The notes below the pieces were generated by a model. That model was not told the origin of the DNA. It searched no databases and was given only the letters and a program-made list of their open reading frames with translations. Shown here piece after piece: positions 5,698 through 64,000 of a stretch of DNA of 64,000 bases. The position numbers and the translations under genes were made by a program. The stretch is from Vescimonas coprocola. GTDB taxonomy: Bacteria; Bacillota; Clostridia; Oscillospirales; Oscillospiraceae. The stretch's first letter is position 1. The number at the start of each line of letters is the position of its first letter. Where the stretch lies: the NCBI RefSeq assembly GCF_018408575.1, contig NZ_AP023418.1:1516415-1580414 (forward strand), given 5' to 3'.

Positions 5698-6672
5698 TCA
5701 GGCCGCTTTATCCACAACCAGGACAACCGTATGTACACCGGTCATTTCAAATTTGGCACCGCATTCGTCAATGGAGTGGGTATGTTCTGACAGCCAATCA
5801 CGGAATTGCTCATACTTGCGTGTGCTTTTCCACTGAATACTGCTTGAACAGACCGCCACAAGACTGCCGCCGGGGCGAAGGAAGTCAAATGCCCTTTTAA
5901 TATGCTCACATTCTTCGCTGAACGGCGGATTCATCACAACAGCGTCATAGATCGGTGCTGTTTCAGCCGTCAACAAATCGTTTCCGATCACATTGTGCTT
6001 TTTCAGCTTCAGGATCTCGCAAAAGTCTGTCATACGCTCAATGCAGTCCACATGGTCCGTTACTTCCTTTGCGACGTCGGCAATGTTGCCGATCCCGGCC
6101 TCCGGCTCCAGCACACGGCTGTCTTTACGGACACCGGCCAGCGCCACAAGCTCTTTTGCCAGCTCCGGGGGCGTGAACTGAATATCTCCCTTTTGATACA
6201 TCTTCGCCCGATAAAGCATATCCCGTAAACGGATCGCATTCGGATCCGGCGGTATAACAGCCGATTGCAGGAGCGTATCAAAGCACTCGACCGCTGCGGC
6301 CAGTTCGTCGGTATCGGTGATGCCTGCCTTTTGCAAACGCTTCGTGCGGACATCATCGGGCTTGGGATACTGAAATTTGCAGTAGGGATTGTCCTTGCAA
6401 TATTTCTTAGAGGCAGAAAAACAGCGCATATCCTCATAAAAGGCAGCAACTGTCAGGTTCTGCTCAAGCAGCGTCAGCGTATCGGTTTCCGATTTCTGTT
6501 TCAAAAACTGCAATACCTGAATCTGCGAGTGATACATTTCCTTTTTTCTGTCTCGTTCCTGCTGTTCACGCTGGCGCTTCCATGTGTTTGTCAGATAATT
6601 CCCGCTGAGGGCGTCTATTTTGCCTTCCAGGGCAGTGATTTGGCGTTCAATCTTTTCTGTGATATTTGCCAT
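5698..6672 (-). CDS. N6-adenine-type DNA methyltransferase
   Basis: A 324-residue SAM-dependent methylase. A charged coiled-coil-like N-terminus (residues 1-60) precedes a methylase domain with the SAM-binding loop LEPEAGIG (188-195, the usual PxxGxG position) and the catalytic NPPF (248-251), diagnostic of amino-DNA methylases. FTPPELAKELV just before motif I matches the type I HsdM-like entry segment. No restriction subunit is adjacent, so it is probably an orphan methylase protecting the ICE or setting an epigenetic mark. The C-terminal target-recognition region is short. Confidence 0.75.
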   Translation of the reverse strand: MANITEKIERQITALEGKIDALSGNYLTNTWKRQREQQERDRKKEMYHSQIQVLQFLKQKSETDTLTLLEQNLTVAAFYEDMRCFSASKKYCKDNPYCKFQYPKPDDVRTKRLQKAGITDTDELAAAVECFDTLLQSAVIPPDPNAIRLRDMLYRAKMYQKGDIQFTPPELAKELVALAGVRKDSRVLEPEAGIGNIADVAKEVTDHVDCIERMTDFCEILKLKKHNVIGNDLLTAETAPIYDAVVMNPPFSEECEHIKRAFDFLRPGGSLVAVCSSSIQWKSTRKYEQFRDWLSEHTHSIDECGAKFEMTGVHTVVLVVDKAA

Positions 6673-46136: not shown

Positions 46137-46269
46137 TCATGTACTCAGCAACCTCTACTGAACGAACTGAACCATGTTGCGCTTCAAGAATAAATATGGC
46201 TTTTAGATAGTCTTCTCCTGAAGAATGAAGTCTTTCTTTTGTAACCGCCTCAGCCACACTGCTGGACAT
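46081..46269 (-). pseudogene. Truncated DtxR/MntR-type metal-dependent repressor
   Basis: The ATG overlaps the stop of the lipoprotein gene (TAATG). SGEDYLKAIFILEAQHGSV and EVAEYMNVSKASVNHAVRHM are the N-terminal winged helix of DtxR/MntR repressors, but the frame ends after about 66 residues. The dimerisation and metal-binding domain is missing. It was presumably the metal sensor of the uptake operon before the break. Confidence 0.7.
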
Positions 46270-47894
46270 TATTTCACATGAACAGATGCAATGTCTACGT
46301 AGCTGGCATCTGTGTAGAAGTCATAGCCAGTTATCTTATCAGTATTCCACAGAGCCAGATCGTGAGTGCCGGTTACAGGCACCAGAAGATTCTGATCTGC
46401 AATACCATTCAGAATCATTCCATAGATTTCCTGCACACGCTGAGAATCAGAAGTGGAGTCCAATTCTGCGAAAATTTCAGGATTCTCAAAGAAAGCAGAG
46501 AACTGGCAGAGGATCGGATCACCCATAGCGCCAGGAGCCATATTGCTCATATCTGTTGCAGGGTCAAAGGAACCGCCAGCAGTATTGTAGAAGGTCAGAT
46601 CATATTCGCCAGCCATCAAGGCTCCATACCAGGTGTTCATGTCTACTGCATCAATAGTAACATCGAAGCCAAGTTCTTTAAGAGAAGCTGCAATAGAAAG
46701 AACTGCATTGTCAACACTTGCAAGGCTCTGAGAATAGTTGAAATGAATGGCGAGAGAAGTTCCGTCCTTCTCCAGGATACCGTCATCATTGGTATCCTCA
46801 TAGCCGGCTTCCTTCATGAGCTGCTTTGCCTTTTCCATGTCGGTAGGATAGGTCTTAACCTCCACACCGCAGTTGGGCTTTTCATTCGTAAAGAGGGTTT
46901 CGGCAGCAGTCTCCAGACCATCGAAAACAGAGGTTTCCAACTCCTGCTGATTAACAGCGTAGGATACTGCTTCCCTTACAAGAGGATCATTAAAGGGAGC
47001 CTTATTCAGGTTCATACCCAGATAACGAGTTTGGTTGGTGCTGTCATCCATGGCATGACCGAAAGCGGCATCCTGGGAAATTTCCGTGTAGCCTTCTGCG
47101 CTAAGTCTGCTGGAGCCGAGAATTGCATCGATTTCGCCGTTGCGCAGAGCAAGAATTTTTGCAGCATTATCAGGAATCACTTTGACTTTGAACTCGTCCA
47201 CTTCAGGAGCTTCGCCCCAGTAGTAGGGATTGCGGATAAAGGTATAGGTATCTCCCTCGACCCGGTCAAACATATAGGGACCAGTACCCATAGTTGCACT
47301 CACGCAATTCTCGTAAGCCTTTTCTACGCCGCCTTCAAAGGCTGCGGGATTCACAATACCAAGAGGCAGCGCCATGGTCAGATTGTCAAGAGCAGCGTAA
47401 TAAGGGGTCTTCAAAGTCATTACAAAGGTTTTTTCATCCGGGGTTTCCAGCTTGTCAAACAAAGTAGTGAGCTTACCGAAGGCACCATTCTGGGGACCCA
47501 GATGGGTTACTACTGCTTCAAGGGTCATCTTTACTGCCTCGGAAGTCAGAGGAGTACCGTCAGAAAATTTGACACCATCACGCAGATGGAAGGTGTAAGT
47601 CTTGCCGTCATCACTGATTTCCCAGGTTTCAGCCAACTCGCCCTGGATCTTCCCGTTATCATCGTAGCTTACCAGAGTGTTGTAAAAATTACGACTCCAG
47701 AATCCGGCACCATAAGTGCTGGATACCATAGGCGTGATGACAGGATAGAAGCCTACAGAAAAGTCCCAATTCTCGGTGACAGTGATTGAGACCGGCTCTG
47801 CATCGGTTTTCTCGCCAGGGTTCGTGCCGCAAGCAGCCATAGCAAGGCACATCACAAGTGCGAGTCCGAAAGCTAAAAGTTTTTTCAGTTTCAT
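46269..47894 (-). CDS. ABC transporter substrate-binding lipoprotein (Opp/Nik, SBP family 5)
   Basis: A 541-residue lipoprotein. The signal peptide ends in lipobox LAMAAC, and family-5 motifs follow (LAETWEISDDGKTYTFHLRDGVKFSDGTPLTSE; FIRNPYYWG; LVREAVSYAVNQ). These proteins capture peptides, nickel or metal chelates outside the membrane. The ATG at 47894 follows AAGGAG. With YbtPQ-like transporters and a DtxR repressor in the same gene row, a metal chelate is the likely ligand. Confidence 0.85.
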   Translation of the reverse strand: MKLKKLLAFGLALVMCLAMAACGTNPGEKTDAEPVSITVTENWDFSVGFYPVITPMVSSTYGAGFWSRNFYNTLVSYDDNGKIQGELAETWEISDDGKTYTFHLRDGVKFSDGTPLTSEAVKMTLEAVVTHLGPQNGAFGKLTTLFDKLETPDEKTFVMTLKTPYYAALDNLTMALPLGIVNPAAFEGGVEKAYENCVSATMGTGPYMFDRVEGDTYTFIRNPYYWGEAPEVDEFKVKVIPDNAAKILALRNGEIDAILGSSRLSAEGYTEISQDAAFGHAMDDSTNQTRYLGMNLNKAPFNDPLVREAVSYAVNQQELETSVFDGLETAAETLFTNEKPNCGVEVKTYPTDMEKAKQLMKEAGYEDTNDDGILEKDGTSLAIHFNYSQSLASVDNAVLSIAASLKELGFDVTIDAVDMNTWYGALMAGEYDLTFYNTAGGSFDPATDMSNMAPGAMGDPILCQFSAFFENPEIFAELDSTSDSQRVQEIYGMILNGIADQNLLVPVTGTHDLALWNTDKITGYDFYTDASYVDIASVHVK

Positions 47895-47962
47895 GTACAA
47901 AATCTCCTTTATTTATTTTTATATCATGCTTTTCAGCAGGGTATACGTATTTATTGAATGGT

Positions 47963-48730
47963 TTAACCCAAATATGGAGCAATAGAATGCAGCAGAAGCT
48001 TGGTATACGGATGTGTAAAGCAGTCTGTCGAACCGTGAAATGTACGGTCTTCGATAATCTTACCGCAGCGCATCACCATCACACGGTCTGCAAGATATAG
48101 CGCAACGTCCAGGTCATGGGTAATGAAAAAGCAAGTCATTTTTCGCTCCTGATGGAGTCGCTTCAGCAAATCAAGAATATGTTTACGAACCAGGACATCC
48201 AGCCCACTGACTGCTTCATCAAAAATCAACACATCCGGTTGAGCCGCTAACGCTCTTGCAATACATACACGTTTTTGTTGTCCACCGGATAGCTCATGAG
48301 CTTTTCGCAGCTTGATCTCTTCGGGAGGCTCCATCATGGTAAGAAGATCATTGATTTCCCGTTCTTCTTCCTTTTTGCTGAGTTTTCTGAAATTGCGAAT
48401 TGGCTCTGCAATGATTTGATATACCGTAAAGCGAGGGTCCATTGCTCCCTTGCCATCCTGAAGAATCAGCTGTATTTTAGATCGCAGTACCTGCTTTTGC
48501 TTGCCCCGGCAGAGGGAAATGTTTTTTCCTTCAAACAGTACCTCTCCAGAAGATGGAACCAGAAGACCGCACATGAGCTGAGCCAAAGTGCTTTTACCAG
48601 ATCCGCTTTCTCCTACCAAAGCGCAAAATGAACCATTCTGAATAGTAAAATCTACATGATCAACGGCCAGAAGCTCGTTGCTTGTGCCTTGTTCGTGAAA
48701 TTCTTTTGATAGGTTGTTGACTTTAATCAT
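47963..48730 (-). CDS. Opp/Nik-type ABC transporter ATPase (second ATPase)
   Basis: A 255-residue ATP-binding subunit with Walker A GESGSGKS, signature LSGGQQKRVCIARAL, Walker B VLIFDEAVSG and H-loop FITHD. It corresponds to OppF/NikE. It overlaps the preceding ATPase gene by 4 bp (ATGA) and drives uptake through the two permeases encoded upstream. Confidence 0.85.
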   Translation of the reverse strand: MIKVNNLSKEFHEQGTSNELLAVDHVDFTIQNGSFCALVGESGSGKSTLAQLMCGLLVPSSGEVLFEGKNISLCRGKQKQVLRSKIQLILQDGKGAMDPRFTVYQIIAEPIRNFRKLSKKEEEREINDLLTMMEPPEEIKLRKAHELSGGQQKRVCIARALAAQPDVLIFDEAVSGLDVLVRKHILDLLKRLHQERKMTCFFITHDLDVALYLADRVMVMRCGKIIEDRTFHGSTDCFTHPYTKLLLHSIAPYLG

Positions 48731-49530
48731 GATTCCGCCCCTTTCGTGAAAGCACAGGAAAGGGAGTAAGCTTCAATCAGCGACCTTGTGTAAGGTTCTG
48801 TGGTATGATCGAAGACAGATTGAACTTCACCGGATTCTATAATTTTTCCTTCTTTCATCACCAACACGTTTCCACCTAATTGAAGAGCTGTTGCGAAATC
48901 ATGAGTTACCATAAAAATCCCAACTCCATTTGCTTTCATCTGCGAAAATAAATCTATGATTCCATTTCTGTGAATCACATCCAAAGCAGTTGTCGGCTCA
49001 TCGGCAAGCACGAATTTTGCATCAAGCATCATAGCCATTGCGATAATGACACGCTGAAGCATTCCTCCGGAAAGCATATGGGGGTATGCTCTGTATACCC
49101 TGTCAGGATCATCTAAGCCTACATCATGCAGAAGCCGCAGAATATAGTTGTAACGCTGCTGGCGGGATTTGTCGGAATGAAGCCGTAGCGTTTCATCCAT
49201 CTGTCTGCCAATACGCATAGAAGGGTCCAATGCAGTCATTGGATTTTGCGGGATATAGACAATCTGGTTTCCGTATATTCCTCGTCTCTGCTTTTCTGAC
49301 GAATTCAAAAGATCAGTCTCGCCGAAGAAAACGGAACCCGACACCTTAAATTTTTTAGGGTCCAATAAGTTTAGCACCGCACTACAGGTCATTGTTTTGC
49401 CGCTGCCTGACTGGCCTAACAAGATCAAAGACTCTCCTTCTTTGATTGCAAAGGATATTTCAGAAACCAAGTTATCCGTACCTGACCGAAGATTAATGCT
49501 TAAATGATCAATCATAAGTGATGGCATCAT
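48727..49530 (-). CDS. Opp/Nik-type ABC transporter ATPase (first ATPase)
   Basis: A 267-residue ATPase with Walker A GQSGSGKT, Q-loop YIPQNPMTALDPSMRIG (typical of OppD/NikD), signature LSGGMLQRVIIAMAM and Walker B FVLADEPTTALD. The ATG at 49530 follows GGAGGAC and overlaps the permease gene by 4 bp. Confidence 0.85.
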   Translation of the reverse strand: MMPSLMIDHLSINLRSGTDNLVSEISFAIKEGESLILLGQSGSGKTMTCSAVLNLLDPKKFKVSGSVFFGETDLLNSSEKQRRGIYGNQIVYIPQNPMTALDPSMRIGRQMDETLRLHSDKSRQQRYNYILRLLHDVGLDDPDRVYRAYPHMLSGGMLQRVIIAMAMMLDAKFVLADEPTTALDVIHRNGIIDLFSQMKANGVGIFMVTHDFATALQLGGNVLVMKEGKIIESGEVQSVFDHTTEPYTRSLIEAYSLSCAFTKGAES

Positions 49531-50351
49531 AGGCTGTCCTCCTCCGGCGTCAGAATATCACGGAGTGCTTCTCCAAATAAATTGAAGCCTGCTGCCGTTA
49601 CGAAGATGCACAAGCCTGGGTAGATTAGCAATTCCGGATGAGAGTAAAGCGCTGTCCTGGCATCATTTAACATGGCACCCCATTCCGGTGTGCCGGAGGG
49701 AAGGCCAAGTCCGAGGAAAGCAAAGCTGGAAACCATAATGATGGAAGAAGCGACACCAGTGGAAACATACACAAGAAACTGTGGCAGAATGTTAGGAATC
49801 AGATGTCTGAAGACCAGCTTTCCTGTATTGCACCCAGAAATTCGGGCTGCCAGGATATAATCTTTACCCATTTCTTGAACGGAATAAGATCTGACAACAC
49901 GAACAAACCAAGCCCAGGTCGCTATCACAACAGAAACGGCAATGTTTTGGAGTCCGTTCCCCAGAACGCCTATGACAGCAATAGCAATGATAAGAGAAGG
50001 AAAAGCAATAAACACATCACAGAGTATAGTAATGAAATGGTCTGCTTTTTTTCCAGCACAGGCGCTAAAAGTACCGACAATCAGACCAATCACAGACAAA
50101 ATCAGCAGCACAGGTAAACTGATTCCGATGGAATATCTGGCTCCATACAGCAGCCTTGATAAGGTACACCTGCCCAATTGATCTGTTCCAAGAGGGTATT
50201 CTGCGTCAGGCTGAGCATACTTTTGCGATAAATTCACCAATTCAGGGTCGTGAGGCGAAAAAGCAGGTGCTGCAATCGCAATTACAATCACAATAGCAAT
50301 CAGGCCCAGACCGATGATTGCCTGCGGCCTTTTGAGTAGCTTATGTATCAT
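49527..50351 (-). CDS. Opp/Nik-type ABC permease (NikC/OppC-like)
   Basis: A 274-residue permease with about six membrane helices, the family N-terminus (AIAAPAFSPHDPELVNLSQK; YPLGTDQLGRCTLSRLLYGA) and the coupling EAA loop (YILAARISGCNTGKLVFRHL). It overlaps the upstream permease gene by 11 bp. Confidence 0.85.
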   Translation of the reverse strand: MIHKLLKRPQAIIGLGLIAIVIVIAIAAPAFSPHDPELVNLSQKYAQPDAEYPLGTDQLGRCTLSRLLYGARYSIGISLPVLLILSVIGLIVGTFSACAGKKADHFITILCDVFIAFPSLIIAIAVIGVLGNGLQNIAVSVVIATWAWFVRVVRSYSVQEMGKDYILAARISGCNTGKLVFRHLIPNILPQFLVYVSTGVASSIIMVSSFAFLGLGLPSGTPEWGAMLNDARTALYSHPELLIYPGLCIFVTAAGFNLFGEALRDILTPEEDSL

Positions 50352-51282
50352 TTTCTTCCCTCACCATCCATGGACAAAGCAGACGGTTGATTATGTCTGC
50401 CATGAAATTTGCGACGACAAAAATTGCTGCAATGACGACTATACAGGTAGAAACTGCAATCGTATCTGCTGCAATCACACTGTCCACCAGATAAGTTCCG
50501 ATTCCCTTGATTGAAAAAACACTTTCGATTACCGCCCCTCCGGCAATTAGAAAGCCGAATTGCTGAAAGAAAATTGTAACAACAGGCGGTAAGGCATTTC
50601 GCAGAATGTGGCATACCAGAATTCTGTTGGCAGATAGTCCACGGGCTTTTGCAAACCGAACATAATCAGAAGATAATTCAGCCAGAAGAGAGGAACGCAT
50701 AATTCGGATGAGTGAACACGAACTGGGAACCGCCAGGGCAAATGAAGGTAGTAAAAAGCCCCTCCAACCTGGACTTGGTAAGACACTGAACCATTTCAGA
50801 TGAATCGCAAAGAACAGTAGAAGAAGGAATCCCAGCCAGAAAGTTGGCACACAAATACCGCAGATAGTAATGCCTCTGGTAACCTGATCGAAAAGGCGGT
50901 TCCGCTTTCTGGCACAGAGCAAACTAATCGGAACGGTGAGCGCGATAATCCATAGAATGGCCATCCCTACAAGAGATGTGGTCGCAGCCAGATACTTGTG
51001 CAGATCCTTTACAATCGGTTGATGAGTGGTCAAAGAAGTCCCAAGTTCTCCTGTAAACATTCCGGAAAGCCACTGAATATATCGCACAGGGAGAGGTTGA
51101 TCCAATCCCATTTCCACCCGAATCATCTCAATCTGTTCCGGCGTAGGATTGGATACGCCTCGGTGTGCAATAATTTCTGCAGGATCTTTTCCGGACCAAG
51201 CAATCAACAAAAAACTTAGAATGCTGACGCCTACCAGCACAATGAGGAAGCTAATGATCCTTTTTCCAATATATTTCTTCAA
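50341..51282 (-). CDS. Opp/Nik-type ABC permease (NikB/OppB-like)
   Basis: A permease of about 313 residues with six helices, IIAHRGVSNPTPEQIEMIRV near the start, LPVRYIQWLSGMFTGELGTS and the EAA loop (YVRFAKARGLSANRILVCHI). A TTG at 51282, 8 bases after GAGGAG, is the best start. A GTG at 51291 would overlap the ribosome site. A hairpin and a DtxR-like box lie just upstream, so this Nik half may also have its own control. Confidence 0.8.
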   Translation of the reverse strand: MKKYIGKRIISFLIVLVGVSILSFLLIAWSGKDPAEIIAHRGVSNPTPEQIEMIRVEMGLDQPLPVRYIQWLSGMFTGELGTSLTTHQPIVKDLHKYLAATTSLVGMAILWIIALTVPISLLCARKRNRLFDQVTRGITICGICVPTFWLGFLLLLFFAIHLKWFSVLPSPGWRGFLLPSFALAVPSSCSLIRIMRSSLLAELSSDYVRFAKARGLSANRILVCHILRNALPPVVTIFFQQFGFLIAGGAVIESVFSIKGIGTYLVDSVIAADTIAVSTCIVVIAAIFVVANFMADIINRLLCPWMVREENDT

Positions 51283-51311
51283 ATAATGCACCTCCTCACA
51301 TCAGAAATCAG

Positions 51312-51327
51312 TTAGACATAGTTAACC
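51312..51327. promoter_or_regulatory. Weak DtxR-like box before the Nik-type genes
   Basis: TTAGACATAGTTAACC keeps the TTAG-N6-(C/T)TAA spacing of the DtxR/IdeR consensus TTAGGTTAGCCTAACC, with one half-site mismatch. It lies 30 bp before the permease start. Confidence 0.35.
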
Positions 51328-53104: not shown

Positions 53105-54852
53105 GCCAACCTCCACTGATTTGCCTTGCAGTATACATCCTGAAAATCCTTATAACGTCCATTGCAGGCCATCAGTTCATTGTGGGTTCCCTGTTCCACA
53201 ACTTTTCCATTCTGGACAAACAGGATCTGGTCTACATTCTGAATAGAGGACAGCCTGTGTGCAATCATGATAACTGTTTTGCCACTCATCAGTTTTTGGA
53301 AAGCCTGCTGCAACTCGTATTCATTTTCCGGATCTGCAGCTGCAGAAGCCTCATCCATAATGACGATATTCGCATTCTTTAGAATAGCCCTCGCAATGGC
53401 GATCCTTTGCACCTCACCACCGGAAAGGTATACGTCCTTTGCCCCTATGACGGTCATCTCCCGCTGGGGAAATTTGTCAAGGATGGATGTGCAGTTCGCT
53501 GCGTCAAGTGCATCCATAATCTGCCGCCGTGTTGCCTGAGGATTTCCGATTCGGACATTTTCGTAAATTGAGGCCTTTAGTAATTGACTGCGCTGGAAAA
53601 CAAATGCGATGTTCTGAATGAGAGCTTTTTCAGAATAACTCTGAATGTTCTTTCCACCAATCAGAATTTCGCCGCCATCGACAGGATAAAAACCTGAAAT
53701 CAGCTTTGCAATGGTAGATTTTCCTCCCCCGGAAGACCCGATGAGCGCATAAGTTTTATTCTGATGAAGTGTCAGGCTGAAATCCTTCAGCACGAAGTTG
53801 TCATCATACTTAAAGTCAACATGACGAAATTCAATATTGAAATCTTGGAAGGTCTCTTCGTTTCCATGTGGAAGCTTTGCCTGATCCATAGAAGTAGTCA
53901 GCTCATCAAGCTGATTCAGCGTATTTTGTGCGCCAAAGTTATCCTGCCCCGTAAACATGATCGATGTGAAAGAAGTAAATACAGCTCCGGAGAACACAGC
54001 AAAGAAAACAATCTTTGCCAGGATTAGCATAGCAGGTTCTCCATAGCTGATGAATACAACTGCGGCTGGTACAGCAAAAGCATAAAACACGTTGAACAGA
54101 ACCTGGAATCCGACGTAGGGATTCTTACAGCTGAGGCTATACTGATAGACGTACTGTTTGTACTCTTTGATCGAGTTAATCAGAGTTTTGTAATACTGTA
54201 CAGTTACACCGAAGATTTTTATGATCTGCATTCCTCTGACATATTCTACTGTTGCCGCACTCATTTTTTGAAGCGCCGCTGAATAGCCAGACAGAAATTC
54301 AGTACCACCGGACATTTTACGATACTGAAGAACACCAATCACAGTTGTAAGGATCAGGAGAATACCAAGGCGATAGTCTATTGCAAACATCAGCACAAAC
54401 ATTAACACCGGCGTCATAACAGCAGTGACGTTGTCCGGAATCAAATGGGCCACTGTTTTGTGTGTTTCTGCTGCGTTATCATCAATAATTTTTCGAATCT
54501 CTCCAGAGCTGTTATGGTCAAAAAAGGAAGAAGAGGCATCCAATAATTTATGAAGCCCATTTTTCCTTAAGTTTGTTTCAAGCCGGAAGCCTAAGTAGTG
54601 GGAACACGTTGCCGATGCAATGTTGAGAATACCTCGTAAAATCATAAGTATGACTACAATAATTGCGTCATACATAGCCTTCTCATATACGGGAATAACC
54701 AGAATAGACACAATGGACTGCCACAGAAACCAATATGCTCCCATATATGAGCAGACGGCAGCGGCAGATAGTGCCATGGAGAAATATGCCCAAATTCTTT
54801 TATCTTGGACATAATGAAATAGTTTTTTATATAAACTGCGCATTGACTTCAA
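53101..54852 (-). CDS. YbtP/IrtA-like ABC half-transporter
   Basis: A 583-residue protein, first gene of the uptake operon. Six membrane helices (e.g. IIVVILMILRGILNIASA) are followed by Walker A GSSGGGKS, signature LSGGEVQRIAIARA, Walker B IVIMDEASAAADP and H-loop IAHRLSS. It pairs with the next gene. A TTG at 54852 lies 5 bases after AGAGGTG and is the most likely start; an ATG at 54843 is the alternative. The promoter upstream carries a DtxR-like box and AraC-type repeats. Confidence 0.8.
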   Translation of the reverse strand: MKSMRSLYKKLFHYVQDKRIWAYFSMALSAAAVCSYMGAYWFLWQSIVSILVIPVYEKAMYDAIIVVILMILRGILNIASATCSHYLGFRLETNLRKNGLHKLLDASSSFFDHNSSGEIRKIIDDNAAETHKTVAHLIPDNVTAVMTPVLMFVLMFAIDYRLGILLILTTVIGVLQYRKMSGGTEFLSGYSAALQKMSAATVEYVRGMQIIKIFGVTVQYYKTLINSIKEYKQYVYQYSLSCKNPYVGFQVLFNVFYAFAVPAAVVFISYGEPAMLILAKIVFFAVFSGAVFTSFTSIMFTGQDNFGAQNTLNQLDELTTSMDQAKLPHGNEETFQDFNIEFRHVDFKYDDNFVLKDFSLTLHQNKTYALIGSSGGGKSTIAKLISGFYPVDGGEILIGGKNIQSYSEKALIQNIAFVFQRSQLLKASIYENVRIGNPQATRRQIMDALDAANCTSILDKFPQREMTVIGAKDVYLSGGEVQRIAIARAILKNANIVIMDEASAAADPENEYELQQAFQKLMSGKTVIMIAHRLSSIQNVDQILFVQNGKVVEQGTHNELMACNGRYKDFQDVYCKANQWRLA

Positions 54853-54902: not shown

Positions 54903-54930
54903 ATTATAATTAGTTTTAGCTAACTGTAAA
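54903..54930 (-). promoter_or_regulatory. Core promoter with overlapping DtxR-like box
   Basis: On the minus strand TTTACA (54930-54925), a 16-base spacer and TATAAT (54908-54903) drive the uptake operon. The spacer contains TTAGTTTTAGCTAACT (54910-54925, plus strand), which matches 11 of 16 positions of the DtxR/IdeR consensus including both TTAG and CTAAC half-sites. A metal-loaded repressor would block the polymerase here. Confidence 0.6.
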
Positions 54931-54999: not shown

Positions 55000-55923
55000 A
55001 TGATAGAAGTTAAACGAGATGATTTCTTTGTTGAATCGATAAAGAATCCAATAGAGTACGGAACATATTATAAGATCAACCCAAAATATGGAACCGGATT
55101 TCAATGGACGAGTGAGGTTCACCACGATTTCATCATTACAGCGACAGATATAAGATTTAACCAGGAAACTATGGTCGGAGAACATATTGGGTCTGGTTAT
55201 GTACTTGCTCTCTATATTAGTGGCGCAGGAGATGAATTCTATCCGTATCAAAATATTTCTCCGAATACATTGCGCTGCTATGAACCATCTGAAAAGTATA
55301 AAGCTATTTATCATCCTCAGATTCCATTAAGATGTATTACCGTGCAGGTTGACCAGGAATTTATTGATCAGTATCTCCAGGAAATTTCCGGTGATCTTGA
55401 AGTGAACTTTTCTGATTTTTTCAAAGAAAAAGGGAAATTCTATTTACCAAATGTTAATCATGCTATGCAAAGCCTATATGAGTATCTGCTTTCCATGAAA
55501 GCGTCCAGAATTACAGTAGAAGCAAAAATATATGAAATCATCTCTTATCTTGCTTCATATTTGAAAGAAAACAGACTAAATGAAGAGAATGGCCAGCCCA
55601 TTAACAAAACAGATTTGCAGGCATTAGCTGAACTAACGCATTACATGGACGAACATTACAGTTTTAATATTACGTTGCAGACGCTTTCCACCATTGCATG
55701 TATGAGTGAAAGCAAAATGAAAAAGCTATTTAAGTCAGTTTATAATATGTCCATTACTGAATACATTCAGAGGAAAAGGATCTCTGTAGCCGAGCATATG
55801 CTTATTCAGACCGACCTCACCATTGCGGAAATTTCAAGAATTGTTGGATACTCCAACCCCAGTAGATTGATTGAAATATTCAAAAGGTATTATGGATTTA
55901 CTCCCTCAAAATACAGAAAATAA
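55000..55923 (+). CDS. AraC family regulator (YbtA-like context)
   Basis: A 307-residue regulator. The N-terminal 180 residues form a sensing domain, and the C-terminal 100 residues carry the two HTH motifs of AraC (NITLQTLSTIACMSESKMKK and LTIAEISRIVGYSNPSRLIE), ending FKRYYGFTPSKYRK. GGGAGGAGCC precedes the ATG. It is divergent from the YbtPQ-like genes, as YbtA is in yersiniabactin loci, where the siderophore itself is the inducer. By analogy it may sense the imported chelate. Confidence 0.85.
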   Translation: MIEVKRDDFFVESIKNPIEYGTYYKINPKYGTGFQWTSEVHHDFIITATDIRFNQETMVGEHIGSGYVLALYISGAGDEFYPYQNISPNTLRCYEPSEKYKAIYHPQIPLRCITVQVDQEFIDQYLQEISGDLEVNFSDFFKEKGKFYLPNVNHAMQSLYEYLLSMKASRITVEAKIYEIISYLASYLKENRLNEENGQPINKTDLQALAELTHYMDEHYSFNITLQTLSTIACMSESKMKKLFKSVYNMSITEYIQRKRISVAEHMLIQTDLTIAEISRIVGYSNPSRLIEIFKRYYGFTPSKYRK

Positions 55924-57280: not shown

Positions 57281-57309
57281 TTGACAACATCTTCGGATCG
57301 TGCTACAAT
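57281..57309 (+). promoter_or_regulatory. Consensus promoter of the TetR-type gene
   Basis: TTGACA, a 17-base spacer and TACAAT lie 46 bp before the GTG start of the regulator. Confidence 0.8.
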
Positions 57310-57355
57310 TTGACTGAAATGAACAATGTGGTCATAAATCCAAGGAGCGTGCGCA

Positions 57356-57934
57356 GTGGCTTTTACAGATGAACAGAATGAACAGATCCGCAAAGACCTG
57401 ATCCGGGAAGCCCGGCGCTGCGGCATTACCATCGGGATGCGGAAAACCTCAGTGGAGCAGCTGACAAATTCCGTCGGTATTTCCAAGGGATCGTTTTATA
57501 AATTCTTTGATTCCAAGGAGCTGCTGTTTTTCGCCGTGCTGGAGGATATCCATACAGAGTGTTTCGCAGCGGCGCAGAAGTCTTTGCAGGAAAATACAGC
57601 CTTATTGCCTACCGACCGCGCGGCAGCGGCGATCCTGGCGGCCTGTCGGTGGCTGGCCGAGACGAAAGCCTTTGTGTTCATCGAAAATGACGCGGATTTT
57701 CTCCTGCACCGACTGCCGGAGGAAGTGAAGACCGCTCACTATCACGACGACGAGGCCCACATCCGTGCCCTGCTGGAAGGGGGCGGCTTGCAGCCGAAGG
57801 GCGGCATGGCACTGGCAGCGGCCACGGTGCGCGGCTTGATTTTAACCGTCTCCCATCAGGAGCAGATCGGGGCGCTTTACCCGCAGGTGCTGGAAACGCT
57901 GGTGCGCGGCGCTTGCCGGGAACTATTTGAATAA
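57356..57934 (+). CDS. TetR family regulator of the methyltransferase operon
   Basis: A 192-residue TetR protein. The HTH (TSVEQLTNSVGISKGSFYKF, residues about 31-50) is followed by FFDSKELLFFAVLEDIH, and the rest is a helical ligand domain. The start is GTG at 57356 with AAGGAG 8 bases upstream. It lies 116 bp before the methyltransferase operon on the same strand and probably controls it together with the operator at 57975. Confidence 0.85.
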   Translation: MAFTDEQNEQIRKDLIREARRCGITIGMRKTSVEQLTNSVGISKGSFYKFFDSKELLFFAVLEDIHTECFAAAQKSLQENTALLPTDRAAAAILAACRWLAETKAFVFIENDADFLLHRLPEEVKTAHYHDDEAHIRALLEGGGLQPKGGMALAAATVRGLILTVSHQEQIGALYPQVLETLVRGACRELFE

Positions 57935-57974
57935 GCGGAAAGGCCGCAGCGATGCGGCTTTTCAAAAGGAATAC

Positions 57975-57992
57975 AGTTAGCTTACCCTAACT
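57975..57992. promoter_or_regulatory. DtxR-like / palindromic operator before the methyltransferase operon
   Basis: AGTTAG-CTTACC-CTAACT is a perfect 6+6 palindrome. TTAGCTTACCCTAACT matches 13 of 16 positions of the DtxR/IdeR consensus. It could bind a metal repressor, or alternatively the adjacent TetR protein. A second CTAACTC/GAGTTAG pair follows at about 57987-58016. Confidence 0.6.
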
Positions 57993-58050
57993 CGCTTGTG
58001 TCATCTGTGTGAGTTAGAGGAGTTTAACATCTCGTTGTGAGGGCGAAATC

Positions 58051-58665
58051 ATGAGGAACAGTCAAAATTTCTGGGATAAAAACGCCGGGCGGTACGACCG
58101 CTTCATGCGCAAGGACGCAGCGGCTTACGAGCGGCTGTACGAGCTGCTGCGCCCCGTGGTGCAGCACAAAACCGTGCTGGAACTGGCGACCGGCACGGGG
58201 CTGATCGCCAAAAATATCGTCCGCTCTGCTGACCATATTGAAGCTACCGACGCATCCCAAGAGATGATTGAGCAGGCAAAACAGGGCGTAAAATCTACGA
58301 AGCTCTATTTTTCGGTGCAGGATATGTTCCACCTGCCTTATGCCGACGAAAGCTTTGACGTAGTCATCGTGGCCAATGCGCTGCATATCGTGCCGGAGCC
58401 GGAGAGGGCATTGTCGGAGATTCGCCGGGTGCTGAAGGATGACGGCATGTTGGTTGCGCCGACCTTCACCCATGCGGATAACGCTTTCTTCGGAAAGGTC
58501 AAAGCATTTTTCATGAAGCTGGCGGGCTTTCCGCTGCACAGCAAATGGACGAGTGCAGATTACCTTTCGTTCCTGCGGGAAAACGGCTGGACGGTGCGGA
58601 AAAGCACCGTGCTGAAAACCTCGTTCCCGCTGACCTACGCAGAGTGCGTGAAATCGGAGGGGTGA
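58051..58665 (+). CDS. Class I SAM-dependent methyltransferase
   Basis: A 204-residue UbiE/Coq5-like methyltransferase, first gene of the operon. It starts RNSQNFWDKNAGRYDRFM and has SAM motif VLELATGTGLIAKNI (about 42-56), IEATDASQEMIEQA and post-motif YADESFDVVIVANALHIV. GAGGGCG precedes the ATG. Such enzymes methylate small molecules. The substrate is unknown. Confidence 0.85.
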   Translation: MRNSQNFWDKNAGRYDRFMRKDAAAYERLYELLRPVVQHKTVLELATGTGLIAKNIVRSADHIEATDASQEMIEQAKQGVKSTKLYFSVQDMFHLPYADESFDVVIVANALHIVPEPERALSEIRRVLKDDGMLVAPTFTHADNAFFGKVKAFFMKLAGFPLHSKWTSADYLSFLRENGWTVRKSTVLKTSFPLTYAECVKSEG

Positions 58666-58668
58666 GCC

Positions 58669-59457
58669 ATGCAGATATTGGAACACGGGCAGGCGCAGGA
58701 GCGGACGCTGCTGTTTTTCCCCTGCACGGCAGAGCCTGTATGGGCTTTTGCCGACACGATCACGCTGCTTTCTCAGAGATGGCATGTTTTTCAGGTGGTG
58801 TATGACGGCCATCAGCCGGAGTATCCCGGGGATTTCACCTCAGTCGAGCAGACCGTGGACGAGGTGATCTCCTATCTGAAAAGCCGCGGCGTCTCCCGAC
58901 TGGATGCGGCCTATGGCTGTTCCATGGGCGGTGCCTGTCTGACCCGTATGCTGGCATTGGGGAAAATGCCCATCAGCCGAGCCATCATTGATGGCGGGAT
59001 CACACCCTATCAGCTGCCCTTCTTGGTGCGAAAGCTGCTGCTGGCGCGGGATGTGCTGTCTTTCAAAATGGCGGCAAACAGCCGAAAGGTACTGGAAGCG
59101 GCTTTTCCGCCGGAACGGTTTACCCCCGCAGGGCACGACCCTAAAAAGGAATACGACGCCATGGAAGCCTATCTGAAAACCTTTTCAGACCGGACGATTC
59201 GCAACATATTCTGGTCCGCCAACAACTATGCGCTTCCGAAGTGCCCTGCGAAAATCGACACAAAAATCACCTACTGGTATGGCGACGACGAAAAGAAGGA
59301 CCGCAGACGCAACATTCAATTTATCAAGCACTATTTTCCGCAGACTCGCATCCACGGTATTCCCAAGATGGCCCATGCGGAGTTGGTGATGGTGCATCCG
59401 GAGGAGTTCTGCCGGTATGCGGAAAAATTTCTGGCTTTGCAAGCGGAGGAAGTATGA
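58669..59457 (+). CDS. Alpha/beta-hydrolase
   Basis: A 262-residue hydrolase. The nucleophile elbow is GCSMGGA with Ser85, an acid lies in YWYGDDEK and the histidine in KMAHAEL. It begins 3 bp after the preceding stop. It may be an esterase, thioesterase or acyltransferase of the same pathway. No lid or signal peptide is seen, so it is cytoplasmic. Confidence 0.8.
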   Translation: MQILEHGQAQERTLLFFPCTAEPVWAFADTITLLSQRWHVFQVVYDGHQPEYPGDFTSVEQTVDEVISYLKSRGVSRLDAAYGCSMGGACLTRMLALGKMPISRAIIDGGITPYQLPFLVRKLLLARDVLSFKMAANSRKVLEAAFPPERFTPAGHDPKKEYDAMEAYLKTFSDRTIRNIFWSANNYALPKCPAKIDTKITYWYGDDEKKDRRRNIQFIKHYFPQTRIHGIPKMAHAELVMVHPEEFCRYAEKFLALQAEEV

Positions 59458-59458
59458 C

Positions 59459-60247
59459 ATGAAAGAAAAAATCAAACTCTCCGGCGTGCCGGAGACCATG
59501 CTGCAAACCGTTTATGCAAGGGCGAAAGAGAGCAGCGGCAGAGGTGCGATCCACGACGCAAAAGCGGAGGGAATCATCGAGAAGCTGGACTACGATTTTT
59601 CCCTTGCGGACAAGGATACGGCCATGCGCAGCGGCGTCATTGCCCGAACCATCGTGCTCGACCGGATGACGAAGGAATGGCTTGCGTCGCACCCCGGCGC
59701 GGTGGTGGTCAACATCGCCTGCGGGCTGGATACCCGCTGCTACCGGATGTCGGGTTACGCACATTGGTATAACCTCGACCTGCCGGAAACGATGGCGGTG
59801 CGGGAAAAGCTTCTGCCGGAAAGCGGCACGATTTCGCAGATTACCATGTCCGCCATGGAAGATTGGGGCAGCGAAATCAGCGAGCAGAATGTGCCGGTGC
59901 TGATCGTCGTCGAGGGACTGACCATGTACCTTTCCGAGAGGAACATACAGCGTATTTTCACGGTGATTTCCAGCCGGTTTTCCAACGCCACAGTCTTTGT
60001 GGAAACCATGAATCCTACGATAGTGCGGCACTTCAAGGAGAAATCCATTGACGCAAGCAACGCAAAATTCAACTGGGGAATCAAGAATGGGAAAACACTT
60101 GCCGAACTGCTGCCGGATTTTCGCTTTGTGGAGGAACACAGCCTGACGGAGGGCATGGCGGCATTTGTACCGATCTATAAGTTGCTGGACAGGCTGCCCG
60201 CCGTGCGGAGTATTTCCAATAAAATCGTTGTACTGAAAAAGGAGTGA
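59459..60247 (+). CDS. Leucine-carboxyl-methyltransferase-family (PPM/LCM) methyltransferase
   Basis: A 262-residue enzyme of the LCM/PPM family, which O-methylates carboxyl groups: RTIVLDRMTKEWL, VVVNIACGLDTR (82-93) and YNLDLPE (104-110) with LIVVEGLTMYLSERNI are diagnostic. The ATG is one base after the previous stop. Family members such as TcmP act in natural-product pathways. The substrate here is unknown. Confidence 0.8.
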   Translation: MKEKIKLSGVPETMLQTVYARAKESSGRGAIHDAKAEGIIEKLDYDFSLADKDTAMRSGVIARTIVLDRMTKEWLASHPGAVVVNIACGLDTRCYRMSGYAHWYNLDLPETMAVREKLLPESGTISQITMSAMEDWGSEISEQNVPVLIVVEGLTMYLSERNIQRIFTVISSRFSNATVFVETMNPTIVRHFKEKSIDASNAKFNWGIKNGKTLAELLPDFRFVEEHSLTEGMAAFVPIYKLLDRLPAVRSISNKIVVLKKE

Positions 60248-60253
60248 CGGAAG

Positions 60254-60871
60254 ATGTCGTTTTTTGAAAACACCCGCAAGCCTGTGGGGCTTGGCGGGAA
60301 GCTCATGGTCACCATGATGAATTTGGGTCACAGCCCTGTGGTGCGGTGGGGGCTTCAATTTCTGAATGCTGCGCCGGATGCCAAGGTGCTGGACTGCGGC
60401 TGCGGCGGTGGGGCAAACATCAAGAGACTTCTGAAAAAATACCCGCAAGGGATCGTGAAGGGTATCGACTATTCGCCCGTCAGCGTGGAGAAATCCAAAA
60501 AGGTCAATGAAACTGCCGTTACAAAAGGACGCTGCGACGTGTTGCAAGGCAATGTGGCGGATATGATCTTCGCAGATGACTGGTTCGATGCGGTCACAGC
60601 TTTTGAAACCGTTTATTTCTGGCCTGATCTGCCGCAGTGCTTCCTGGAGGTTTACCGGGTGCTGAAGCCCAACGGGACCTTTCTCATCTGCAACGAGAGC
60701 AATGGCGACTCGGACAAGGACGAGAAGTGGACGGAGATTATCGGCGGTATGACCATATACAGCGGCGATGAGCTGAAAACATTTCTGGAAAACGCCGGAT
60801 TCTGCAATGTTCAAATCCATAAAAACAAAATGGGCTGGCTCTGCGTGACAGGACAGAAGCGGGAGAAATAA
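60254..60871 (+). CDS. Class I SAM-dependent methyltransferase
   Basis: A 205-residue enzyme with SAM motif VLDCGCGGGANIKRLL near residue 48, GIDYSPVSVEKSKKVN and FDAVTAFETVYFWPDLPQCF. It resembles the short UbiE-like methyltransferases of Clostridia. It is third of four methyltransferases in the operon, 6 bp after the previous gene. Confidence 0.85.
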   Translation: MSFFENTRKPVGLGGKLMVTMMNLGHSPVVRWGLQFLNAAPDAKVLDCGCGGGANIKRLLKKYPQGIVKGIDYSPVSVEKSKKVNETAVTKGRCDVLQGNVADMIFADDWFDAVTAFETVYFWPDLPQCFLEVYRVLKPNGTFLICNESNGDSDKDEKWTEIIGGMTIYSGDELKTFLENAGFCNVQIHKNKMGWLCVTGQKREK

Positions 60872-60874
60872 GGA

Positions 60875-61360
60875 ATGTTGCTGCAAACGATTCTGGAAGG
60901 ACTGGGGCTGGGGGCGTTGCTGGTCTTGGTGTGCGCTGTCGGCATCCACAAGGGCGCTGTCGGCATGGCGCATTTGTATGACTCGAAGGTACAGGAACGA
61001 TGCGTTGCGCTGGGTCTGACCACAAAAGAAAAGATCAAGCAAAACTCGCTGCGCTTCAAGCTGATCTGCGTTCCGGGATATCTTGCTTATGTGCTGATTT
61101 GCGTGTATGCCATCAACGGTGCGCAGACATTTTGGGGCGGCTTCTGGCAGTGCTTTGTAATCCTGTCTGTGATGAATCTCATCGACCGGCTTGGCATCGA
61201 CGGCTATTGGGTCGGACACACCAAGGCATGGGTGATACCGGGGACAGAGGATCTGATGCCGTACATCTCGAAAGCAGGCAAGCAGAAGAAATGGCTGTTC
61301 GGAACACTGGGAATGGCCATGATTTCTTTGCTCCTTGCGGGACTCGGGCTGCTGCTGTAA
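60875..61360 (+). CDS. Four-helix integral membrane protein
   Basis: A 161-residue membrane protein with about four helices (TILEGLGLGALLVLVCAVGI, ICVPGYLAYVLICVYAI, FWQCFVILSVMNLIDRLGID, GTLGMAMISLLLAGLGLLL). Conserved-looking polar residues HTKAWVIPGTEDL lie between helices 3 and 4. It could anchor the enzymes at the membrane or act on a lipid substrate. No family name is certain. Confidence 0.6.
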   Translation: MLLQTILEGLGLGALLVLVCAVGIHKGAVGMAHLYDSKVQERCVALGLTTKEKIKQNSLRFKLICVPGYLAYVLICVYAINGAQTFWGGFWQCFVILSVMNLIDRLGIDGYWVGHTKAWVIPGTEDLMPYISKAGKQKKWLFGTLGMAMISLLLAGLGLLL

Positions 61361-61373
61361 GGAGGAAATACCG

Positions 61374-62237
61374 ATGTCAAAGAAAGCGACTGAATTTCAG
61401 AAAAGAGAAATGAGCAAGATGTACCGCGGCAAGGAGATATTCAAGCCGCTGAACACCGGCTGGGTGGATGAGCGCGTGGCCTGCGTGCGGGAGTGGGTGG
61501 CGAACATCTTCTTCTACCGCAAGGGCGACACCACCATCATGATCGATGCCGGGTACAACTACGACCGGCTGGCAGAAAAAATGGGCTGGCTGGGCATCGA
61601 CCCGCAGTCCATCCGGCACATCCTCATCACTCATCAGGACACCGACCACGTGGGCGCGGTGGAGTCAGACAGCCCCGGTTTGTTCCGGAGCGCAAAGCTC
61701 TATATCGGCGAGATTGAAAACCGGTATCTCACCGGCGAGGTGCGGCGAAAAGTCATATATCATCTCTATAAATTGCCGCAGGTCACAATTAACAACGAAA
61801 AGGTGCTGCTGCATGACGGCGAGACTTTCGAGATTGACGGCATCAAAATTGAGTGCTTTCTCGTCCCCGGCCATACATGGGGGCATATGGTCTATCTTAT
61901 TGACGACAAATATCTCTTCACCGGCGATACTATCTGGTTCGGCGCGGACGGCGGCTACAGTTTCATTTCCTCTCTGGCAGAGGACAACAAACTGGCGGTG
62001 AAGTCGCTGGCGGCACTGGAGCAGAAGCTGCAAAGCCGTGGATTACACCCGCTGTTCCTCACCGGCCACACCGGCTGGACGGACAATTTTGACTTTGCCT
62101 TTGGCCATAAGGACAAGCTTTGCTCACCGTTCCGAAAGCGGGTTCCCGACCCCACCGCGCCTTACGACGCCTACGATGAATCAGACGATACGGAGGAAGT
62201 GGCGAGGGCCGGGTATCTTCAGGCTGTGGGGCGATAA
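61374..62237 (+). CDS. Metallo-beta-lactamase-fold hydrolase with altered metal motif
   Basis: A 287-residue MBL-fold enzyme: ITHQDTDHVG (His87-x-Asp89-x-Asp91-His92) takes the place of HxHxDH, followed by VPGHTWGHMVYL, LFTGDTIWF and LTGHTGW. The second histidine of the first motif is Asp, so metal binding may differ from glyoxalase II-like relatives. The ATG at 61374 follows AAGGAGG. It probably hydrolyses an ester or thioester in the pathway. Confidence 0.8.
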   Translation: MSKKATEFQKREMSKMYRGKEIFKPLNTGWVDERVACVREWVANIFFYRKGDTTIMIDAGYNYDRLAEKMGWLGIDPQSIRHILITHQDTDHVGAVESDSPGLFRSAKLYIGEIENRYLTGEVRRKVIYHLYKLPQVTINNEKVLLHDGETFEIDGIKIECFLVPGHTWGHMVYLIDDKYLFTGDTIWFGADGGYSFISSLAEDNKLAVKSLAALEQKLQSRGLHPLFLTGHTGWTDNFDFAFGHKDKLCSPFRKRVPDPTAPYDAYDESDDTEEVARAGYLQAVGR

Positions 62238-62249
62238 AGGAGGATGACT

Positions 62250-63110
62250 GTGCGCTATAAAATTGAAAAGAACACGGTGCAGGAGATGCTGATCATTCCG
62301 CTGTACGCACGGAAAATGTGCTCCGAGCTGTACCCCAATTTGTACCGGGATGAGGCGGTGCGGCGGCTGGTAAACGCGGTCGACTATGATTTTTCCGCCT
62401 TGGAGAAAAAATCCCGCAATTTGATGCAGCGCTTCGGCTTCCTTGAGGTCGCCATGCGGCAGAACGACCTTGCCTACGAGGTGCGGGATTATCTGAAAAC
62501 GCGCCCCACGGCAGCAGTGGTAAACCTCGGCTGTGGGCTGGACTGCACCGGCCGCACCTGCGACAACGGACACTGCAAAATCTACAATCTGGACTTTCCG
62601 GATGTCATTGCGGTGCGGAATCAGCTGCTTCCCTCCGGAGATCGGGAAACGAACATCCCCTGCGACCTGAATGACACAGCGTGGCTTGACAAAATCGACG
62701 CCTCCGGCGGCGCGGTCTTTTTTGCGGCGGGAGTGTTCTACTATTTCCTAAAGGAGCAGGTAAAAACACTGGTACGTGCTATGGCAGACGCCTTTCAAGG
62801 CGGCGTACTTGTGTTTGACGCCGCCAACGAAAAGGCGGTGAAACTGATGCTGAAAACATGGCTGAAGGATGCGGAAATCAAGGATGTGGGCGCGTACTTT
62901 GCCGTTTCGGACGCGAAAAGCGAGATCGGTGCGTGGGACAGCAGTTTGCGGGTCTCCAGCCGGGGCTATATGCTGGGCTACAACGATCTGAAAGGCCCGT
63001 CAGTCAGCGGCTTTTTCCGCTTCCTTGCCCGGGTCGGCGATGGGATGATGAGAATGCAGATCGTAAAAATCAAATTTAGAGGGGAAAGCGATGAAGCATC
63101 AGCACTTTGA
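62250..63110 (+). CDS. Second LCM-family methyltransferase, with cysteine insertion
   Basis: A 286-residue LCM/PPM-like methyltransferase: VVNLGCGLDCTGRTCDNG and YNLDFPDVIAVRNQLLP are the SAM-site motifs. Between them four cysteines (GCGLDCTGRTCDNGHC) replace the usual TRxxR, an unusual change that may create a metal site. The GTG at 62250 is 6 bases after AGGAGG and preferred over the ATG at 62244. It overlaps the last gene by 20 bp. Confidence 0.75.
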   Translation: MRYKIEKNTVQEMLIIPLYARKMCSELYPNLYRDEAVRRLVNAVDYDFSALEKKSRNLMQRFGFLEVAMRQNDLAYEVRDYLKTRPTAAVVNLGCGLDCTGRTCDNGHCKIYNLDFPDVIAVRNQLLPSGDRETNIPCDLNDTAWLDKIDASGGAVFFAAGVFYYFLKEQVKTLVRAMADAFQGGVLVFDAANEKAVKLMLKTWLKDAEIKDVGAYFAVSDAKSEIGAWDSSLRVSSRGYMLGYNDLKGPSVSGFFRFLARVGDGMMRMQIVKIKFRGESDEASAL

Positions 63111-64000
63111 TGTGGGAACCGTCGGCTTTTACGGCGCATACTGGGCGTGTGCCGGCGGATCGGACTGCGCGGTCATTGCGATGATTGGTGACGATCCGGA
63201 GGATCGGCTTGTGCGTTCAGCCGTGAAATGGCTCTGCGGGCGGGGCGTAAATGTGCTCACCATGTCGCCTGCGAAAAAGGATTACGGCCATCATAATTAT
63301 CCGCTGGAGCGTGTGGAGACGGCCATTTCGTGGCTGAAAGTCAACGGCAACCATAAAATTGGCATTGCCGGTGCATCGACTACGGGAACGCTGGCGCTGA
63401 CAGCGGCTGCCATGTTCCCGGATGTTACCCTGACCATTGCCATGACGCCCAGCGATTTTGTGTGGCAGGGTTTTATGCAGGGCAAAAGGGACGGCTGCAA
63501 GGAATGGCCGGTCGAGGGTGAATCGCTGTTCTCCTACCGGGGCAAACTGCTGCCCTATATGCCGTTTTGCTATCAGCACCCGGACTATTGGCACTGTATC
63601 GCCGCCGAGAGCAAACGCACCGGCGATATGGTAAACTCCCGCAAGCTGTTTGACGATTCCGAGGCGGCGCACCCGATCGAGCCGGAAGAATACATTCCCG
63701 TTGAAAACATCCGGGGAAAGCTGCTGCTGATCGGCGCGGAGGACGATGCGCTGTGGGACACCGCAAAGTATATCCGCCGGATGGAAAAGCGCCTTGCCGA
63801 AAAACCGCATGAATGCGAGATTGAGATGATGGTTTATGCCCACGGCACCCACTTCGTTTTCCCGGAGGGAATGCTGAAAATCATGCTGCCGATTGGCTCC
63901 GGTCTATTTGTGAAGTTCGCATTTCAGGCAGCAAAAAAATATCCGAAGGAATGCCGCCAGACCCGGATAGACATCGAGAAACGGATGTGCCGGGTGTTAG
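63091..64000 (+). CDS. BAAT-C-like acyl-CoA thioester hydrolase, cut by the window edge
   Basis: An open frame of at least 303 codons running off the right edge. It has the alpha/beta-hydrolase nucleophile GASTTG with Ser96, acid-containing GAEDDALWD and the final His in HGTHFVFPEG, matching the bile acid-CoA:amino acid N-acyltransferase C-terminal domain family. GGGGAAAG precedes the ATG, inside the end of the previous gene. It suggests transfer or release of an acyl group in this pathway. Confidence 0.8.
   Translation, partial: MKHQHFDVGTVGFYGAYWACAGGSDCAVIAMIGDDPEDRLVRSAVKWLCGRGVNVLTMSPAKKDYGHHNYPLERVETAISWLKVNGNHKIGIAGASTTGTLALTAAAMFPDVTLTIAMTPSDFVWQGFMQGKRDGCKEWPVEGESLFSYRGKLLPYMPFCYQHPDYWHCIAAESKRTGDMVNSRKLFDDSEAAHPIEPEEYIPVENIRGKLLLIGAEDDALWDTAKYIRRMEKRLAEKPHECEIEMMVYAHGTHFVFPEGMLKIMLPIGSGLFVKFAFQAAKKYPKECRQTRIDIEKRMCRVL

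Follow-up and report, generated by a model that had tools for sequence, protein, structure and literature searches.

To our knowledge, the acquisition of iron by commensal gut Clostridia, Faecalibacterium prausnitzii among them, without siderophores made by non-ribosomal peptide synthetases (NRPS) is poorly explained. In the known DtxR/IdeR regulons an inverted-repeat box with half-sites of the TTAG/CTAA type stands at dtxR and feoAB. In yersiniabactin and mycobactin loci an AraC gene precedes two exporter-fold ATP-binding cassette (ABC) half-transporters (YbtPQ, IrtAB); YbtP and IrtA are importers of metal-siderophore complexes. Opine zincophore clusters combine CntL and CntM with an Opp-type importer and, according to the accessible part of one report, some contain extra methyltransferases (PMC7438024). 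The locus described here resembles each of these in part. It lies in a 64,000-nucleotide stretch of Vescimonas coprocola (C1:1516415-1580414 of the 2.56-Mb genome; contig NZ_AP023418.1), which we call the window, and consists of a 12-gene enzyme operon that begins behind a tetR gene and runs past the right edge of the window, where coordinates are extrapolated, to 67110. A box, GTTAG-N6-CTAAC, precedes the operon and is also found at dtxR and feo genes; an Opp/Nik-family importer adjoins the operon, and an AraC gene with an exporter-fold half-transporter pair follows it. The box is a predicted operator whose spacing is unlike that of the known DtxR box, and the enzyme operon is unlike known members of iron regulons. 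In contrast to the yersiniabactin and mycobactin loci, no NRPS condensation domain was found here and the biosynthetic genes are unrelated. The locus differs from the opine clusters in its iron-type regulator site and in that the nicotianamine-synthase family was not found in six genomes with such clusters.

The box was defined by comparing the 116-bp spacer between tetR and the first methyltransferase gene, MT1, with the spacer of a paralogous TetR-MT1 pair (L005), and was then counted in loci that had not been used for the definition. Eleven TetR rows were examined, from 10 distinct loci and with the paralogue included. Each has at least one exact box a short way downstream of tetR, and in 10 of the 11 a second, with at most one mismatch, follows 35-37 bp further on. 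The 200 bp before tetR contain no box at up to two mismatches in these 11 rows. For wider counts a profile of the operon protein ATC1 was used; 456 of its 500 pattern matches in species genomes were coding stretches, of which the best 80 were kept as loci. Some of these overlap (L017 = L038; L031/L070) or share genomes (L044/L052, L048/L053, L037/L057), thus the 80 are not all independent. The controls were 40 windows of 20 kb from 12 genomes of the same family, placed by hand at round coordinates and not randomly generated. Exact boxes amount to 99 sites in 54 of the 80 ATC1 loci and, in the LCM2 set, to 32 sites in 14 of 20 loci; the two sets have at least two loci in common. Among the 40 control windows, 2 contain exact boxes, with 4 sites in all. 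Within the ATC1 loci a spacing of 6 gives 99 sites, whereas no other value in the range 0-14 yields more than one; GTTAG is the first of 1,024 half-sites, with 99 against 17 for the next. Exact sites were found before MT1, MT2, ATC1, MBL, LCM2, ABH1, ZIP, DUF3793, ABC1, lipoprotein and dtxR genes, among others. An exact box stands within 350 bp upstream of a gene at or before ATC1 in 45 of the 80 runs; 10 of the remaining 35 reach the end of the fetched DNA. We also note that the second TetR-MT1 pair stands alone at C1:387169-388471 (L005 7169-8472) with two exact boxes, and that a shortened TetR copy without MT1 (C1:136444-136905, L006) lies beside a one-mismatch box.

The genome of V. coprocola holds eight exact boxes against one for the reversed pattern. 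One of them has one-mismatch neighbours on both sides and occupies the interval that separates the FeoA domain of feoA-feoA-feoB from a gene for a DtxR-family repressor (C1:298370-298762), whose product exceeds the cut-offs of PF01325 and PF02742. Of the others, two belong to the TetR-MT1 paralogue, and the window operon, the right-flank lipoprotein and a DUF3793 gene also carry the box. In six other genomes with such clusters, exact and reversed sites number 13 vs 2 in G031, 4 vs 3 in G033, 2 vs 1 in G041, 13 vs 0 in G104, 13 vs 2 in G022 and 11 vs 0 in G091. Boxes lie upstream of feoA or feoAAB in G031, G022, G091 and G104, both boxes of G041 precede dtxR-like genes, and in G033 a box is found 423 bp before an open reading frame (ORF) whose FeoB match is only 167 bits. 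Of the two box-bearing control windows, one proved to be a dtxR-feoA-feoA-feoB locus; its genome (G098) matches neither LCM2 nor PF14196. In the second, no labelled gene follows the box directly. Most simply, the box would serve as operator for an iron-responsive repressor of the DtxR family. The operon shares its box with dtxR/feoAB genes and is therefore very probably a member of such a repressor's iron regulon; this membership is the best-supported statement on its function. The accessible part of a study of delta-proteobacterial Fur boxes does not contain GTTAG (PMC545781). Genes of the DUF3793 family (PF12672) are regularly found beside the box (L188, L193, L198, L199, L206, L161) and are therefore probably in the same iron regulon.

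The enzymes of the operon recur together far more often than in the controls. Counting similarity to the cluster's own sequences at E 1e-6 or better, and not whole Pfam families, the 80 ATC1 loci and 40 controls contain, respectively, methyltransferases in 46 and 0, alpha/beta hydrolases in 38 and 0, LCM enzymes in 32 and 0, the small membrane protein in 29 and 0, the metallo-beta-lactamase (MBL)-fold protein in 28 and 0, a 165-aa membrane family in 24 and 0, the ketopantoate-reductase-like protein KPR in 22 and 0, ZIP in 19 and 0, DUF6796 in 10 and 0 and DUF3793 in 8 and 0. The transporter ABC1 at 500 bits or more is present in 11 of the 80 and in none of the 40. Of 110 genomes of the family, 19 (V. 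coprocola included) contain relatives of LCM2 and 20 contain PF14196; the best 80 ATC1 loci span Faecalibacterium, Gemmiger, Lachnospiraceae, Erysipelotrichaceae, two Actinomycetota and one Sphaerochaeta. Agreement in pairwise gene order is 81%, compared with a mean of 63% after shuffling (highest of 500 shuffles, 70%). The operons are mosaics, in which genes are gained and lost and order is partly kept. An earlier note on this DNA, made from the window alone, had proposed a compact, undescribed small-molecule operon and suggested looking for its co-occurrence across Clostridia. Its families do recur together, and the open-access literature (most subscription papers lie outside it) gave no description of the operon, of the box or of an iron role for PF14196. 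The eight genes are, however, not kept as one fixed unit: composition varies widely from locus to locus in 20 LCM2 neighbourhoods and the 80 ATC1 loci. The note had seen neither the box nor the link to metals. In a tree of the 80 ATC1 rows the window copy clusters with those of Gemmiger formicilis DFI.6.10 and an Oscillospiraceae isolate (support 100/99). Bacillota rows need 2 changes. By eye, rows of Oscillospiraceae are mixed with rows of Lachnospiraceae, a sign of transfer but no proof of it. In the Faecalibacterium loci L039, L045, L047, L048, L049 and L052 a large serine recombinase follows AraC-lipoprotein-ABC1-ABC2, a possible means of cassette exchange; recombinases are unenriched overall (11 of 80 loci vs 4 of 40 controls).

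The order of the operon is given in Table 1. As the earlier note had described, eight packed plus-strand genes follow tetR in the window; all eight ORFs are open and most have Shine-Dalgarno-like leaders. The intervals are MT1-ABH1 3 bp, ABH1-LCM1 1 bp, LCM1-MT2 6 bp, MT2-membrane protein 3 bp, membrane protein-MBL 13 bp and MBL-LCM2 6 bp, and LCM2 and ABH2 overlap by 20 bp. The operon was also expected to continue to the right, and extension of the contig gave four more genes (ATC1, ABH3, ATC2, KPR) on the same strand without a real gap, then AraC, a lipoprotein and two ABC half-transporters. The predicted pairs of methyltransferases, LCM enzymes and different hydrolases, and the MBL protein, all score over Pfam cut-offs; four of them (MT1, MT2, LCM1, LCM2) are S-adenosylmethionine (SAM) enzymes. 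An NCBIfam scan of the operon genes submitted gave none over its cut-off. The MBL protein is indeed altered: it belongs to PF00753 but lacks the classical HxHxDH metal motif, which is replaced by HQDTDH in all 30 orthologues that score 300 bits or more. What had been called a four-helix membrane protein is a membrane protein, with three or four segments in a hydropathy scan. It and the 165-aa family (L031 18281-18778) are mutually related (hhalign 96.5%, E 9e-10), and the latter too has no Pfam family over cut-off. The BioC/BioH pair is the precedent for methyl-ester protection and release, and by analogy MT1 and ABH1 may possibly follow the same logic.

ATC1 and ATC2 score 74.3 and 45.7 bits against PF14196 (cut-off 28.1), the family of L-2-amino-thiazoline-4-carboxylate hydrolase, although nothing points to a thiazoline substrate. 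The predicted model of ATC1 has a confidence score (pLDDT) of 92, and its four PDB matches at E 0.001 or better are all H-NOX domains, a fold used for haem; Bet3/TRAPP and phenol-sensor domains come lower down, with template-modelling (TM) scores below 0.5. The model suggests an H-NOX/V4R-type fold for ATC1, consistent with the accessible part of PMC5847659. The ATC1 profile found no match among PDB sequences. An alignment of 20 PF14196 proteins, with ATC2 among them, shows three invariant cysteines. Histidine is absent from the 7 invariant and the 54 nearly invariant positions listed for ATC1, thus a haem ligand like that of H-NOX is not evident. A table row for a co-expression module of F. 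prausnitzii, in the accessible part of PMC9674144, names L-2-amino-thiazoline-4-carboxylate hydrolase with the numbers 7 and 14.

Importer-like genes flank the operon on both sides. The left five-gene importer scores 329.6 bits with the NikA model and 249.9 bits with the CntA model, both under cut-off, and NikA is among its top PDB matches. For the left half-transporter gene ending at 54852 the best half-size PDB matches are IrtA and YbtP (232 bits each), with MsbA close at 209. The best half-size chains for ABC1 are YbtP (334 bits) and IrtA (323 bits); two-domain exporters are higher in total score but without a single passing stretch. The right-flank lipoprotein (gene 14) has a model of pLDDT 50, for which the eight best Foldseek matches are all ZinT/YodA/AdcA, but at E 0.003 or worse and TM of 0.30 or lower. 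Sequence tests failed: the ZinT family PF09223 gave no match to this protein at E up to 1 and none in its genome, hhalign with E. coli ZinT aligned 27 columns only, and across 110 genomes the family had one match, under cut-off. The ZinT reading thus relies on the weak fold search and on reading by eye. ZIP genes, with 115 matches in 110 genomes (about one per genome), lie at most 2.1 kb from 6 of 22 LCM2 places, against 0.06 expected within 3 kb (Poisson p ~6e-11).

Given importer-like genes to either side, the many tailoring enzymes and the lack of NRPS, NRPS-independent siderophore (NIS) synthetase and nicotianamine-synthase matches in six genomes, a metallophore of a type not described before is the likeliest function. 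The operons probably serve metal acquisition in a manner not yet described; the most likely role of this one is to make or modify a small molecule that binds metal and would be imported by the flanking transporters. When iron is scarce, the DtxR-family repressor would leave the paired boxes at 57976-58028 and the 12 genes would be transcribed along with feoAAB and the metal-complex importers. Methyltransferases, LCM enzymes, hydrolases, the reductase-like protein and the H-NOX-fold PF14196 proteins would then build or tailor a siderophore-like metallophore, and the flanking YbtPQ-like and Nik-like ABC systems would take up its metal complex. We give this whole reading, an iron-starvation regulon under DtxR with a metallophore made without NRPS or NIS enzymes and taken up by the flanking systems, a probability of about one half. 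As species keep different tailoring genes, they would make related but different molecules. More tentatively, the operons might represent a new siderophore or metallophore class, independent of NRPS, NIS and nicotianamine-synthase enzymes, assembled from mix-and-match methyltransferases, hydrolases and H-NOX-fold proteins under a DtxR-type switch, widespread in gut Clostridia including F. prausnitzii and diversified between strains by gene gain and loss. An operator common to feoAB, metal-transporter genes and a reshuffled enzyme operon offers a directly testable answer to how gut Clostridia acquire iron, and the box together with the ATC1 gene is a handle for finding the product, which may prove to be a new type of small metal-binding molecule from the human gut. 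The poorly understood PF14196 family and two small membrane-protein families also gain a physiological setting.

Several results count against the main reading. In six cluster genomes (that of V. coprocola, G031, G033, G041, G014 and G104) there was no match to the NRPS condensation domain PF00668 (4 of 14 controls matched), the NIS IucA/IucC synthetase PF04183 (2 of 14) or nicotianamine-synthase PF03059 (1 of 14; CntL may fall outside this model), so that no scaffold builder was found for the operon; the earlier note's failure to see an NRPS thus extends to the whole genome for condensation domains. Opine dehydrogenase PF10100 was likewise found in none of the six, but control genomes gave no match either. 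There is no clear exporter for a metallophore, no NCBIfam model scored the ABC genes above its cut-off, and the V. coprocola genome has no ZIP match. Near the operons P1B ATPase (11 of 80 loci vs 3 of 40 controls), DtxR (5 vs 2) and Nik (3 vs 7) are not significantly raised, although P1B ATPase and DtxR genes are present in some related loci; ABC transporters at a loose threshold (28 vs 9) behave in the same way, and these families and the serine recombinase were set aside as statistically linked partners. No exact box is present in 26 of the 80 ATC1 loci, and 7 of 23 fetched box stretches have no recognised neighbour (L185, L186, L192, L196, L200, L204, L205). One-mismatch sites in the V. coprocola genome number 20 for the box and 34 for the reversed control pattern; they were rejected as a genome-wide signal, and the two on the left flank of the window therefore count by position only.

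There are three rival explanations. The cluster might take up and break down foreign iron sources such as xenosiderophores, haem or dietary tetrapyrroles, with hydrolases, H-NOX-fold proteins and methyltransferases altering them to free the iron, and gene shuffling would then mirror the range of chelates met. Importer-like neighbours and the missing scaffold builder suit this as well, as does the fold suggested for ATC1; the PF14196 member TolI sits in the tolyporphin tetrapyrrole cluster, according to the accessible part of PMC8401325. Four SAM enzymes in one operon are better suited to building than to breaking, however, and the conserved positions of ATC1 offer no histidine for haem. We rank breakdown of foreign chelates or haem next after the metallophore, and consider it rather unlikely. 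Less probable again is an iron-starvation metabolism other than chelation, for example the reduction of ferric iron for FeoB and ZIP by a secreted redox carrier, or an iron-sparing or envelope modification. The box common to feo genes, the ZIP neighbours, the UbiE-like methyltransferases and the small membrane proteins would fit, but the labelled families include no quinone or flavin pathway gene and the YbtPQ-like and Nik-like importers would be left unexplained. The box could also be the operator of the local TetR, the operon then answering an unrelated small molecule such as a drug or toxin to be detoxified. Its place just downstream of tetR in every TetR row, and the existence of a two-gene TetR-MT1 pair, would agree with this; the same box at feo, dtxR, DUF3793 and Nik genes and in clusters without tetR, with a feo locus turning up in a control window, makes it very improbable.

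Table 1 Features of the operon and its flanks (window positions; those beyond 64000 are extrapolated)
Feature	Position	Strand	Family or remark
Nik/Cnt-like five-gene importer	46269..51291	-	left flank; probably same regulon
Importer substrate-binding lipoprotein	46269-47900	-	
Importer ATPases	47963-48730, 48727-49530	-	
Importer permeases	49527-50351, 50341-51291	-	
Box, one mismatch	51311..51326	.	20 bp before NikB-like gene
Left-flank ABC half-transporter pair	51380-53116, 53101-54852	-	divergent from AraC
Box, one mismatch	54909..54924	.	between divergent left ABC pair and AraC gene
Left-flank AraC-family regulator	55000..55923	+	PF12833 over cut-off
TetR-family regulator	57356..57934	+	PF00440 (TetR_N) over cut-off
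First box, exact GTTAG-N6-CTAAC	57976..57991	.	
Second box, one mismatch	58013..58028	.	37 bp from first
MT1, class I SAM methyltransferase	58051..58665	+	PF08241 (Methyltransf_11) over cut-off
ABH1, alpha/beta hydrolase	58669..59457	+	PF12697 (Abhydrolase_6) over cut-off
LCM1, LCM-family methyltransferase	59459..60247	+	PF04072 over cut-off
MT2, class I SAM methyltransferase	60254..60871	+	PF08241 over cut-off
Small membrane protein	60875..61360	+	no family over cut-off
MBL-fold protein, HQDTDH motif	61374..62237	+	PF00753 (Lactamase_B) over cut-off
LCM2, LCM-family methyltransferase	62244..63110	+	PF04072 over cut-off
ABH2, BAAT_C-family hydrolase	63091..64000 (end extrapolated to 64023)	+	PF08840 over cut-off
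ATC1 ('ATC hydrolase')	64025-64675	+	PF14196 over cut-off
ABH3, third alpha/beta hydrolase	64672-65463	+	
ATC2	65460-66164	+	PF14196 over cut-off
KPR, ketopantoate-reductase-like	66181-67110	+	PF02558
Right-flank AraC	67225-68202		
Right-flank lipoprotein	68276-68992		
Right-flank YbtPQ-like pair of ABC half-transporters	69053-72562		

A hairpin with a T run lies directly after tetR (57938-57963) and is a likely terminator parting tetR from the enzyme operon. A plasmid comparison of the locus gave no match. Among the remaining exact boxes of the genome, one (L005 local 6555-6570) lies 325 bp before the gene for a very large secreted protein that by eye resembles an S8 peptidase (L005 627-6230, minus strand), and another (C1:1594766) has a 687-aa ORF on one side and, on the other, the 3′ end of an ORF that by eye was taken for ferritin. 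To the left, a 606-aa ORF at 43433-45253 appears by eye similar to TraG/VirD4 coupling proteins and hints at an integrative element on that side.

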